Below, piece by piece: positions 1,641 to 24,823 of a DNA stretch of 25,024 nt (position 1 is its first letter; each line of letters opens with the position of its first letter). The translations under genes and the position numbers were made by a program. The notes below the pieces were generated by a model. The model had not been told where the DNA came from, searched no databases, and saw nothing but the letters and a program-made list of their open reading frames with translations. The DNA comes from a virus. Where the stretch lies: positions 1 to 25,024 of the IMG/VR virus record IMGVR_UViG_3300030390_001955; one strand, given 5' to 3'.

Positions 1641-1672
1641 GTGAATATACGAAAAATAATGCGCATCTCCAA
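1641..1672 (-). promoter_or_regulatory. Bacteroidota-type promoter embedded in terminator (TTG-N20-TATATTCAC)
   Basis: TTG at 1670-1672 overlaps the loop of the hairpin 1659-1686. The -7 box TATATTCAC is at 1641-1649, with a 20-nt spacer ending in TTCG. The downstream ATG (1636) falls where transcription should begin. Confidence 0.7.
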
Positions 1673-1686
1673 ATGGAAATGCGCAT
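1659..1686 (-). terminator. Hairpin terminator after the 1749-2705 gene
   Basis: An 8-bp perfect stem ATGCGCAT/ATGCGCAT continues, after one A/C mismatch, into a 3-bp stem with a 4-nt loop (1671-1674). On the minus strand it is followed by TATTTTTCG, a short T-run. It fits an intrinsic terminator ending the unit 2993-1749. Confidence 0.7.
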
Positions 1687-1748: not shown

Positions 1749-2705
1749 TTACTGGTAATCTTTTAGAAAACGACCGAAGTGTTCTCTTAATGCGATATCA
1801 GGTTCATTAACTGATAAGTATTGGGTAAATTCATCTACAATATCATCATCGTCCCCAGCATTTAGTATATCATCCATATGAGTTTCAATAAATCCTTTAA
1901 GTTCTTCTTTGCTTGCTCCTTTTTCTTTAATTAATAGAGACATAACTTGTTTAATTATTTCATCTCTATCTTCATACGGATCCAATGTAGAATCTATTTC
2001 TTTCATATGACTTGGTTTTATTCCTAGTTTAGCAGCTGCTCTTGAAACTCCATCCCTAGGTTTTTTATCTTTTTCTTTATCTTCTTCTCTAATACTAATA
2101 TCATCTAAAGCATCTCTTGTGCCCATAAACATTGGTATTTCTTCTGGTTTAGGATCTGGTGTTCGGTAAAGACTAAGTCTTTTATGCATTTCATTGTTTA
2201 GATGGTTAATTACATCTTCAGGATAAAACATATCGTCTTCAGTTAAATCCTCCCATATATCATCAAATGCATCTAAAAATTGTGCCTTTAATGGTCTACT
2301 AAGCATACCTTCAATTTTATTAGCTACTTCTTTATCAATTCTTACTTCGTTCATTTTATTTTTATTTGATTTAATATGGGATGTTGCATTTTCATATGAA
2401 TCGCCTTTATCAACTTTTCTGTAAGCTAAAGCTGCTGCTTTTTTCTTACCAGCAGGGATATCATCATCGGCATTTACTATATCATCGTATTTGTCTTCTT
2501 TAATACCTGCTTTGTCTTGAGATGCTTCAATTGCTAAATCAACGGCATCACCTTCTTTTACAGACTTTTCTTTAGCCATCATAGCTTTAATTTTTTTAAT
2601 CATCTCTTTATCAGGATGCTTATCTAGTCTTTCTTCCTCTTGTGCTCGTTCGTAATCTTTGTAACCCATACCTTCATGGATATCTAATAAATTGTATTTA
2701 CTCAT
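1749..2705 (-). CDS. Large acidic helical phage protein, unknown function (318 aa)
   Basis: A 318-residue, highly charged protein with long Asp/Glu/Lys-rich helical stretches: an N-terminal charged helical region (about 17-60), a central PRDGVSRAAAKLGIKPSHMKE segment that looks helix-turn-helix-like (about 217-236), and a C-terminal helical segment with an acidic DDDDIVDE cluster. There is no signal peptide, membrane segment or recognisable catalytic motif. It follows the membrane-anchored gene at 2709-2993 by 3 nt, so the two share a transcript, probably from the AT motif at 3019-3034. Abundance of charge and the shared motif with the virion-like gene at 4568 suggest a late or structural role, but this is inference. 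Confidence 0.8.
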   Translation of the reverse strand: MSKYNLLDIHEGMGYKDYERAQEEERLDKHPDKEMIKKIKAMMAKEKSVKEGDAVDLAIEASQDKAGIKEDKYDDIVNADDDIPAGKKKAAALAYRKVDKGDSYENATSHIKSNKNKMNEVRIDKEVANKIEGMLSRPLKAQFLDAFDDIWEDLTEDDMFYPEDVINHLNNEMHKRLSLYRTPDPKPEEIPMFMGTRDALDDISIREEDKEKDKKPRDGVSRAAAKLGIKPSHMKEIDSTLDPYEDRDEIIKQVMSLLIKEKGASKEELKGFIETHMDDILNAGDDDDIVDEFTQYLSVNEPDIALREHFGRFLKDYQ

Positions 2706-3018: not shown

Positions 3019-3034
3019 TTATAAATATATAAAA
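3019..3034 (-). promoter_or_regulatory. Candidate second-class (late?) promoter motif
   Basis: On the minus strand the 16-mer TTTTATATATTTATAA lies about 26 nt upstream of the ATG at 2993. The identical 16-mer occurs at 5511-5526 ahead of the virion-like gene. No TTG is found 20 nt upstream, unlike the other promoter class. The plus strand reads TATAAATA, the T4 late box, but in the wrong orientation for these genes. Confidence 0.4.
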
Positions 3035-3035
3035 C

Positions 3036-3452
3036 CTAGGCTAAATTATATTTTTGTTTATACTTATCTACAAATGAAATACCTACTCCAATATCTACTA
3101 TTTCTGCTGTAGTTGGAATACCAACTAATTTATCTGCTGATAATATATAATCTATGTTTTCATTTTTAAACACTTTAATTTTAGTTTTAGCATTAGAACG
3201 ATTTGATGTTTTAAATACTAATACTACAGGTTGCTTACCATATGCTTTACCTTTTTCAGGTTTAAATTTAAGTTGACGTTCACCCTTAGCTGGGAAGTAT
3301 TCTGTTTTATAAGGACCACGATCAAATTTACTTCTATCATAGTGCCAAACTGATCTACTACCTATTTCAGGTTTAGAAGGAACTTCTAACATTTCCTGTG
3401 TATACTTTTGCCATGGTATTGCTTCTTGTTCTTTTGGTCTACCTCTACTCAT
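3036..3452 (-). CDS. Phage protein of unknown function with N-terminal AT-hook-like motif (138 aa)
   Basis: The protein starts MSRGRPKEQE, where RGRP is the core of an AT-hook. The rest has several basic and aromatic strands (SVWHYDRSKFDRGPYKTEYF; KPVVL-type strand QPVVLVFKTSNRS) ending in a beta/alpha segment. It may bind nucleic acid, but the family is not recognised. The ATG at 3452 lies just past the stop of the upstream gene, so the two are coupled. It is the last gene of the unit from the 4008 promoter. Confidence 0.7.
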   Translation of the reverse strand: MSRGRPKEQEAIPWQKYTQEMLEVPSKPEIGSRSVWHYDRSKFDRGPYKTEYFPAKGERQLKFKPEKGKAYGKQPVVLVFKTSNRSNAKTKIKVFKNENIDYILSADKLVGIPTTAEIVDIGVGISFVDKYKQKYNLA

Positions 3453-3971: not shown

Positions 3972-4043
3972 TTTAATTATTAATAGAGCTTCGTGCCCCA
4001 CTTATGTGTAAATATACGAACTCTCCTCACGGTATCCAAATTT
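3972..4043 (-). repeat. Intergenic promoter repeat, diverged copy 3
   Basis: It aligns along its length with 1-72 and 1336-1407, conserving the TTCGTG/CCCAC part of the leader, the promoter core and the AACTCTCCTC segment, but with clearly more substitutions than those two show between each other. Confidence 0.75.
4008..4039 (-). promoter_or_regulatory. Bacteroidota-type promoter (TTG-N20-TATATTTAC)
   Basis: TTG at 4037-4039 and TATATTTAC at 4008-4016, with a 20-nt spacer ending in TTCG. It should drive the three genes 3959-3036. Confidence 0.7.
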
Positions 4044-4502: not shown

Positions 4503-4534
4503 GTGAATATACGAACAAATGGTGGGAAAGCCAA
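4503..4534 (-). promoter_or_regulatory. Bacteroidota-type promoter embedded in terminator (TTG-N20-TATATTCAC)
   Basis: TTG at 4532-4534 lies inside the 5-nt loop of the hairpin 4522-4544. The -7 box TATATTCAC is at 4503-4511, spacer 20 nt ending in TTCG. The predicted leader to the ATG at 4486 is only about 12 nt and contains AAAGG. Confidence 0.75.
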
Positions 4535-4544
4535 GCTTTCCCAC
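4522..4544 (-). terminator. Strong hairpin terminator after the virion-like gene
   Basis: A perfect 9-bp stem GTGGGAAAG/CTTTCCCAC with a 5-nt loop (4531-4535), located 23 nt downstream of the stop of the 4568-5479 gene. The following minus-strand bases CCATTTGTTCG are only modestly T-rich. The loop holds the -33 box of the next promoter. Confidence 0.75.
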
Positions 4545-5479: not shown

Positions 5480-5510
5480 TAGTCTTTATTTTACTAGAGT
5501 TAGTTGTTTA

Positions 5511-5526
5511 TTATAAATATATAAAA
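5511..5526 (-). promoter_or_regulatory. Candidate second-class (late?) promoter motif
   Basis: The minus-strand 16-mer TTTTATATATTTATAA is identical to that at 3019-3034 and lies about 31 nt upstream of the virion-like gene's ATG. No TTG box is present at the 20-nt distance. Confidence 0.4.
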
Positions 5527-7124: not shown

Positions 7125-7134
7125 AAATATATAA
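7123..7134 (-). promoter_or_regulatory. Possible weak second-class promoter motif
   Basis: The minus-strand sequence TTATATATTTAT shares 12 bases with the motif at 3019 and 5511, here overlapping the annotated ATG of the zinc-ribbon gene. It makes sense as a promoter only if translation starts at 7094. Confidence 0.25.
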
Positions 7135-7151
7135 CCTTTTAAAAATTGGAA

Positions 7152-7183
7152 TGGAATATACGAATATTAGATTAATTAACCAA
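7152..7183 (-). promoter_or_regulatory. Bacteroidota-type promoter overlapping the end of a glycosyltransferase gene
   Basis: TTG (7181-7183) is a leucine codon near the end of the upstream gene. The 20-nt spacer ends in TTCG and the -7 box is TATATTCCA (7152-7160). It should start the unit 7124-5552, with an AAAAGG sequence in the leader. Confidence 0.65.
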
Positions 7184-20448: not shown

Positions 20449-20858
20449 TTTAATAAGGGTTTTATTTCTTTTTTATTTAATCCTCTATTCGATAATATAC
20501 GATTTATTTCTACGGGAGCCAACATACTTATATATTCTTTTGCTTCTTTATTAGAGCATTCAAAATAATTTTTAATATGACCTACTAAATCTTTATTTGG
20601 TTGTTTTACCTTAGATTTAATATATTTACTCCATTTATTATTTTTAGGAATAAACTCTTTATAAATAGAATATATCATTCTTTTTTCTTGTGGTGGAAAA
20701 TCTTGTACATAATTAACCACTTCAATATAGTCAGGGTTCATAGATATAAACCTATGAACCATATAACTATTCCAAACCTCCCAATCTTTCTCTGTAAAAG
20801 ATTCAACTGGGGGTTTGGTAGTATTAATTGCTTTTAACCAATCAAAGATAGAATTCAT
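20445..20858 (-). CDS. 62: gp62-like clamp loader small subunit (137 aa)
   Basis: The sequence pattern IFDWLKAINTTK (4-15), NSYMVHRFISMNPDYIEVVN (30-49) and IYKEFIPKNNKWSKYIKS (66-83), ending with KEAKEYISMLAPVEINRIL, resembles the clamp-loader small subunit of T4-like phages. In T4, gp62 joins four gp44 subunits to load the gp45 sliding clamp on primer-template DNA. T4 gp62 is about 187 residues, whereas this is 137, closer to the shorter cyanophage forms. The link with gp44 two genes upstream supports the call. Identified by pattern and context, not by alignment. Confidence 0.75.
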   Translation of the reverse strand: MNSIFDWLKAINTTKPPVESFTEKDWEVWNSYMVHRFISMNPDYIEVVNYVQDFPPQEKRMIYSIYKEFIPKNNKWSKYIKSKVKQPNKDLVGHIKNYFECSNKEAKEYISMLAPVEINRILSNRGLNKKEIKPLLK

Positions 20859-22032: not shown

Positions 22033-22282
22033 ATATTGAATATTTCTTTTCTGGTTCTATAATTACTTCTTCTTCTGTAGTAGATATCGCGTATAATTCA
22101 CTTTTTAAGGGAGCAAGTCGATATTCACCTCTAAATCCTGTTTTTACCATATAAGCTTCTAAACAATCAGTTAATGTCTTATGTAATGGACCATCTGGTT
22201 CATTAGCAACTAATCTCCACTTATCACCTGGTGGTACTCTACGAGCAATTAAAATCTTATGTTCTTTTATTATTTTTTCCAT
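22013..22282 (-). CDS. Small phage protein of unknown function from a probable leaderless mRNA (89 aa)
   Basis: An 89-residue alpha/beta protein: MEKIIKEHKILIARRV, PPGDKWRLVANEPDG, then a helix TLTDCLEAYMVKTG and acidic C-terminal region. Not recognised. The ATG at 22282 lies 3 nt past the -7 box TATATTTAC, leaving no room for a ribosome-binding site, so translation probably starts at the 5' end of the mRNA. It overlaps gp44 by 20 nt and leads the replication operon. Confidence 0.7.
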   Translation of the reverse strand: MEKIIKEHKILIARRVPPGDKWRLVANEPDGPLHKTLTDCLEAYMVKTGFRGEYRLAPLKSELYAISTTEEEVIIEPEKKYSIYGEFGQ

Positions 22283-22285
22283 AAT

Positions 22286-22317
22286 GTAAATATACGAAAA
22301 ATAAATGGGGGAACCAA
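22286..22317 (-). promoter_or_regulatory. Bacteroidota-type promoter embedded in terminator (TTG-N20-TATATTTAC)
   Basis: TTG at 22315-22317 lies in the 9-nt loop of the hairpin below; TATATTTAC is at 22286-22294 with a 20-nt spacer ending in TTCG. It should drive the gp44/gp62/nuclease operon. Confidence 0.75.
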
Positions 22318-22331
22318 AAGCTCCCCCGTTT
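22303..22331 (-). terminator. Strong terminator after the chaperone/histone operon
   Basis: A GGGGGA/TCCCCC core (22307-22312 with 22322-22327) extends through AAAT/GTTT at the base to about 10 bp, with a 9-nt loop. On the minus strand it is followed by a T-rich run (TTTATTTTT). It lies just after the histone-like gene stop at 22334. Confidence 0.8.
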
Positions 22332-24754: not shown

Positions 24755-24773
24755 ATAACTTATTTATTTAGAC

Positions 24774-24805
24774 GTGAATATACGAATAATATTGCGCTAG
24801 GACAC
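24774..24805 (-). promoter_or_regulatory. Bacteroidota-type promoter (GTG-N20-TATATTCAC)
   Basis: GTG at 24803-24805, TATATTCAC at 24774-24782, spacer 20 nt ending in TTCG. It should start the chaperone/histone operon 24754-22334. Only a weak 3-bp hairpin is seen around the -33 box here. Confidence 0.65.
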
Positions 24806-24823
24806 GCCTTTTTGGTAAAACTT

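Follow-up and report, generated by a model that had tools for sequence, protein, structure and literature searches.

In the promoters of the phage N4 virion RNA polymerase, a DNA hairpin close to -12, with a conserved loop, is the recognition element. The Bacteroidetes primary-sigma promoter (sigma-ABfr / sigma-A) is composed of TTTG at -33 and TAnnTTTG at -7; in F. psychrophilum the sigma-A -7 box TAnnTTTG occupies -12 to -5 (PMC9723704), in B. fragilis TTTG was described at about -33 (PMC7366714), and in F. johnsoniae no -33 motif was found by RNA-seq, as stated in the latter paper. Leaderless genes make up about 5% in F. psychrophilum. Intrinsic (Rho-independent) terminators are characterized by a G+C-rich stem, a loop of 3-5 nt and a T-rich tail. 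Post-termination recycling of RNA polymerase has been described for promoters that are distant on the template or antisense (Kang 2020, Harden 2020).

The DNA analysed here (the window) is a whole linear IMG/VR contig of 25,024 bases with 29% G+C. It is a contig of a T4-like phage, whose long ORFs lie almost all on the minus strand. Among the encoded proteins are a T4-type clamp loader (phrog_168), GroES and GroEL (PF00166 and PF00118) and several glycosyltransferases. A nucleotide search against named phages found no relative of the window, and among these phages the clamp loader had only distant T4-like relatives, at about 40% identity at best. Clamp-loader relatives with 84-100% identity were found in 80 uncultured viral contigs, and the phage group is marine. 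Rfam and tRNA searches of the window gave no matches. From the form of the promoters, the host probably belongs to Bacteroidetes.

At site 1 (Table 1) the minus strand reads ATGCGCATTTCC-ATTT-GGAGATGCGCAT, then TATTTTTCG, then TATATTCA. Twelve pairs, including one G-U, join the 5' arm (1686-1675) to the 3' arm (1670-1659); both T of the TTG lie in the loop between them, and the 3' arm begins with its G. This TTG stands 20 nt upstream of TATATTCA. The preliminary description had given the positions of this hairpin, its loop and the TTG, which proved correct to the base, and the same geometry does recur at two other places, as it had claimed (sites 2 and 3). A stable G+C-rich stem with a short loop was found at all three sites; the RNA of site 1 folded at -19.1 kcal/mol, compared with a mean of -7.4 for shuffles (z = -4.45), and the z values against shuffles for the other two are in Table 1. 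A T-rich tract directly follows the stem at site 1 (TATTTTT) and at site 3 (ATTTATTTTT), and the tail of site 2, CATTTGTTCG, is a weak U-tract. In the gene downstream of site 1, 13 nt separate the start codon (1636-1634) from the first T of TATATT, and this gene is therefore probably leaderless; at site 3 the ATG at 22282 is 12 nt from the first T of the -7 box, a leaderless spacing.

Table 1. Coordinates of the features at sites 1 to 3 and of two comparison promoters in the window.
Feature	Position	Strand	Basis
Site 1, terminator-like hairpin, 12-bp stem, loop ATTT (1671-1674)	1659..1686	-	fold search, RNA folding
Site 1, TTG in the hairpin loop, -33 box of the following promoter	1670..1672	-	sequence
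Site 1, T-rich tail (U-tract) TATTTTTCG, from the stem to the -7 box	1650..1658	-	sequence
Site 1, -7 box TATATTCA, compare TAnnTTTG	1642..1649	-	consensus from PMC9723704, PMC7366714
Site 1, downstream gene, ExoX-like C-terminal motif PF20600	1406..1636	-	profile match
Site 1, upstream gene, 3' end carries the putative terminator	1749..2705	-	homologues in L122, L218, L224, L244 share the composite end
Site 2, hairpin, geometry as site 1, loop exactly TTG (4532-4534)	4522..4544	-	folding z -4.60
Site 2, -7 box TATATTCA	4504..4511	-	pattern match
Site 3, hairpin, 9-bp stem, loop TTT, TTG at 22315-22317	22307..22327	-	folding z -3.17
Site 3, -7 box TATATTTA	22287..22294	-	pattern match
Promoter with TTG and -7 box, no strong hairpin (comparison)	4009..4039	-	pattern match
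Promoter with TTG and -7 box, no hairpin (comparison)	7153..7183	-	pattern match

A second fold was seen between the upstream gene and the site 1 hairpin (1687-1748; ACTTACT-ACGCT ... AGCGT ... AGTAAGT, then CTTTT); its z was -2.63 and it had no Rfam match.

The arrangement TTG-N20-TATATTYA resembles the primary-sigma promoter (-33/-7) of a Bacteroidetes host in its TTTGG box, in its TAnnTT box and in the position of the -7 box relative to the predicted start. It differs in that TATATTYA matches TAnnTT of TAnnTTTG and ends with A instead of the consensus G, in the fixed 20-nt spacing and in the strong, extended TTTGG. The TTTG expected about 19-20 nt upstream is present as TTG-N20-TATATT at site 1 and at five other positions in the window. 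With the preceding CG (TTG-N18-CGTATATT) the pattern occurs six times on the minus strand of the window and is absent from the plus strand; the control read backwards gave one match. Two of these six matches are the comparison promoters of Table 1 (4009-4039 and 7153-7183), and another (20494-20522) lies inside coding sequence. The consensus of 182 hairpin-free non-redundant promoters, a set selected for the TTG and TATATT region, was aaAaaATTTGG...TTCGTATATTTAC. At most hairpin-bearing 22.3-kb junctions TATATT and ATG are 12-13 nt apart, which fits a sigma-A box at -12 to -5 (PMC9723704). Where the distance is 12 nt (22282 and most hairpin-bearing relatives), RNA would start at the A of ATG, and at site 1 it would start 1 nt before ATG; genes with such spacing would be leaderless. 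A scan of bacterial genomes for the motif gave 55 stretches under mixed organism names, with motif-bearing Flavobacteriaceae MAG contigs among them. A strong -33 box is visible in these phages, which probably infect Bacteroidetes, whereas this box has been hard to see in flavobacterial hosts.

Several other promoter forms were observed. In hairpin-free homologues of the 22282-22300 junction (L128, L134 and L153), TTTCGTATATT directly abuts ATG, and with the usual distance the first base of the RNA would lie past the start codon. Many hairpin-free promoters of the broad set (L001-L120, defined below) share an extended box TTTGGNTNCCCRAGA, possibly a recognition element for a phage factor. A promoter at 24767, in front of the gene preceding GroES, was set aside, with GTG at the box position and a fold z of -0.29 against shuffles. 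In this promoter (24775-24812), where GTG replaces TTG and a stable hairpin is absent, GCGTGTCCTAGCGC is conserved over the -33 position in dozens of relatives and could be a regulator site. A 72-nt promoter-plus-leader unit is present in three copies (1-72, 1336-1407 and 3972-4043), 78-96% identical to the first; the units carry TATATTTACAYATAAGTGGGRCACGAAG, and two of the three have GTG for TTG at the -33 position.

Corresponding gene ends carry the composite in relatives. In four of them, genes homologous to the one upstream of site 1, at 28-38% identity, end in composites with the loop on the box (register I), with different stems and different genes following. At the 22.3-kb junction, eight homologous hairpins retain TTG in the loop, and five of the nine pairs have changed on both sides; the covariation score was reached by none of 500 shuffles, and slid controls scored lower. 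A terminator-shaped hairpin superimposed on a promoter, with the -33 box in its loop, was recovered as first described, at homologous and at non-homologous junctions and with compensatory stem changes. Nine distinct sequences of the 22.3-kb junction have no hairpin, yet their -7 box is retained, 5 nt past the stop codon. Their last codons before the stop are GTG GCT GAG in eight and GTG GTT GAG in one, which puts TGTGG at the -33 position, whereas all 14 hairpin-bearing sequences have GTA GCA GAA/GAG (0/14 versus 9/9, P = 1.2e-6); this codon difference may be one evolutionary split, and is support for selection on the box but not proof of it.

In front of the gene downstream of site 2, relatives have a promoter with a TTG or TAG box at the same spacing, without hairpin in six of them (L224, L122, L040, L070, L042 and L019), with a hairpin in another register (register II, box in the 5' arm) in three (L218, L076 and L103), and with the loop on the box in others. 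The nine sequences of the 22.3-kb junction likewise have the -7 box without the hairpin. The proposal in the preliminary description, that hairpin formation exposes or hides the promoter box, is not supported by these relatives: the promoter is kept despite loss or shift of the hairpin, an outcome which that description had itself named as refuting. The promoter thus does without the hairpin, and its box can lie outside a loop. Access to the promoter seems not to be under the control of the hairpin, and a hairpin in nascent RNA leaves the duplex DNA read by sigma unchanged.

Through a survey of 1.25 Mb of sequence from the clade, taken in pieces, 33 T-tailed hairpins with a -7 hexamer close behind were found by a detector of ungapped stems, which misses imperfect stems such as that of L122, and with ORF length as the sole basis for calling sequence coding. 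In 24 of the 33 (register I) the loop falls on the box or within a base of it. In three (register II) the loop is shifted downstream and the 5' arm contains the box, and in six (register III) the loop is near the -7 box, which leaves the promoter box at the 5' foot or next to it. A single homologous junction accounts for many of the 24, and counted by junction register I occurs about five times in the clade, with about five more independent loop-on-box junctions in other contigs. In register I the box is constant at -23 to -21 from TATATT, and the arms are 8 to 12 long. A strong hairpin was present at 27 of 57 promoters with a TTG box, six of nine with TAG, none of 57 with other letters and none of 79 with GTG, the last group being dominated by two junction families; about half of the TTG promoters are hairpin-free.

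A broad set of 200 non-redundant promoters from 120 pattern-selected loci was selected for TTGG, and informs on the position of the hairpin relative to the box and not on how often the box is TTG. In this set register I was found seven times against 0.8 +/- 0.9 in column-shuffled controls, register II 18 times against 3.2 and register III seven times against 0.7; in the phage's own clade register I was found seven times against 0.2 +/- 0.4. Immediately 5' of the box (-34 to -25), hairpins showed no enrichment in the broad set (3 versus 2.7 shuffled). The expectation that TTG lies in the loop more often than by chance thus held against shuffling but not as a general rule. The loop as a generally privileged place for the box was rejected, with 18 boxes in the 5' arm against seven in the loop and 154 of the 200 promoters without hairpin.

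The T-tract separates the registers. Among non-redundant promoters, the 8 nt before the -7 region contain 5.8 T in loop-on-box cases and 3.5 in hairpin-free ones (P = 1.7e-6), with 3.5 in register II and 2.2 in register III. Since the extended T-tract is found only in register I, a full terminator fits this promoter in one register. We consider it likely that the composite is an intrinsic terminator superimposed on a Bacteroidetes-type promoter, with the loop placed on the box by geometry. RNA polymerase finishing the upstream gene would transcribe the hairpin and the U-tract, and the RNA would be released just before the -7 box. In the duplex, the host primary sigma would find the -33 box TTTGG and the -7 box TATATTYA 20 nt apart, and these boxes would start the next gene, sometimes leaderless. 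A usable terminator would need about 8-12 nt of 3' arm and about 8-12 nt of T-tract, together equal to the fixed 20-nt spacer, and because the two fill the spacer the hairpin would turn over at the box. We infer this geometric reading of the loop position from the anatomy. The stems can vary freely with TTG fixed because the loop alone among the parts of a hairpin needs no complement. Termination, initiation, the acting polymerase and sigma, and leaderless translation are predictions from sequence in this scheme. Compared with known intrinsic terminators, the phage hairpins share the stem, loop, tail and stem covariation, but their stem and tail occupy -45 to -13 of the next promoter.

That compaction merely sets terminator and promoter close, with the loop on the box by accident, we regard as very unlikely: there are three registers, and in the broad set the box is most often in the 5' arm, but loop-on-box exceeds the shuffles in both comparisons and deeply diverged relatives have the composite at the corresponding gene end. 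A cruciform or single-strand hairpin presenting or hiding the -33 box, with the N4 promoters as precedent, would agree with the box lying in a 3-5 nt loop at about five junction families and with the covarying stems. It is nevertheless extremely improbable, because orthologous promoters are hairpin-free, other registers put the box within the stem or at its foot, and the extended T-tract accompanies only the loop on the box, while a DNA switch needs none. On comparative grounds a hairpin requirement of the N4 type conflicts with the conservation of hairpin-free orthologous promoters; the phage hairpin resembles those of N4 as a hairpin in promoter DNA with a conserved loop, but differs in lying near -33, in being dispensable and in having a stem free to vary. 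Inverted repeats binding a dimeric repressor or activator over the promoter spacer are highly improbable as well. Hairpins with the box in the 5' arm and without extra T could in part be such operators, but stem sequences differ freely across junctions and relatives with pairing kept, unlike a sequence-specific operator, and no stem sequence motif conserved across the junctions of one phage was seen; the operator reading was rejected for stems that vary while pairing persists.

Coupling of the two signals, by which a polymerase would let go of the upstream RNA, remain on the DNA and start again at the promoter beneath it, is unlikely. Terminated RNA polymerase does stay on DNA and re-initiate at nearby promoters in vitro (PMC6978380, PMC6978322), and in the phage, as in the recycling described by Kang 2020 and Harden 2020, a promoter adjoins a terminator. 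The predicted release point is about 10-20 nt from the start site, hairpins on the promoter are enriched and those immediately upstream of the box are not, and the site 1 hairpin overlaps the promoter despite about 60 nt of free space upstream. However, the precedent is E. coli in vitro and not a Bacteroidetes polymerase or these phages, re-initiation was mostly antisense in one of the two studies (PMC6978322), the promoters work without any hairpin as judged by conservation, and compaction accounts for the same positions. The phage promoter is in the same bases as the predicted terminator and in sense, in contrast to those of Kang 2020 and Harden 2020. A hand-over device, in which one polymerase travelling in the same direction and never leaving the DNA transcribes a string of separately terminated genes, is quite unlikely.

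The superimposed predicted terminator and promoter are a recurrent, conserved genome compaction, with the stop signal and the next start signal within the same 40 bases. In literature searches, which covered mainly papers outside subscription, no published phage terminator had the -35/-33 box as its loop. The composite is a recurrent, sequence-defined case in which terminator and promoter share bases and the stem changes compensate, and selection on both functions can therefore be read from sequence. The composites are also natural templates for testing re-initiation by a polymerase from the terminator it has just used.

Other repeated signals were noted at gene starts. Many minus-strand genes begin with AATAAAGGTTATG, for example near 701, 1086, 1323, 3753 and 4485, a shared translation-start context without normal Shine-Dalgarno spacing. 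Motifs like TATATATTTATAA are located upstream of genes near 3020-3036, 5508-5524 and 7125-7135, and in two relatives (L222 and L236) a motif similar to TATATATTTATAA follows T-tailed hairpins, possibly as an analogue of a late promoter.
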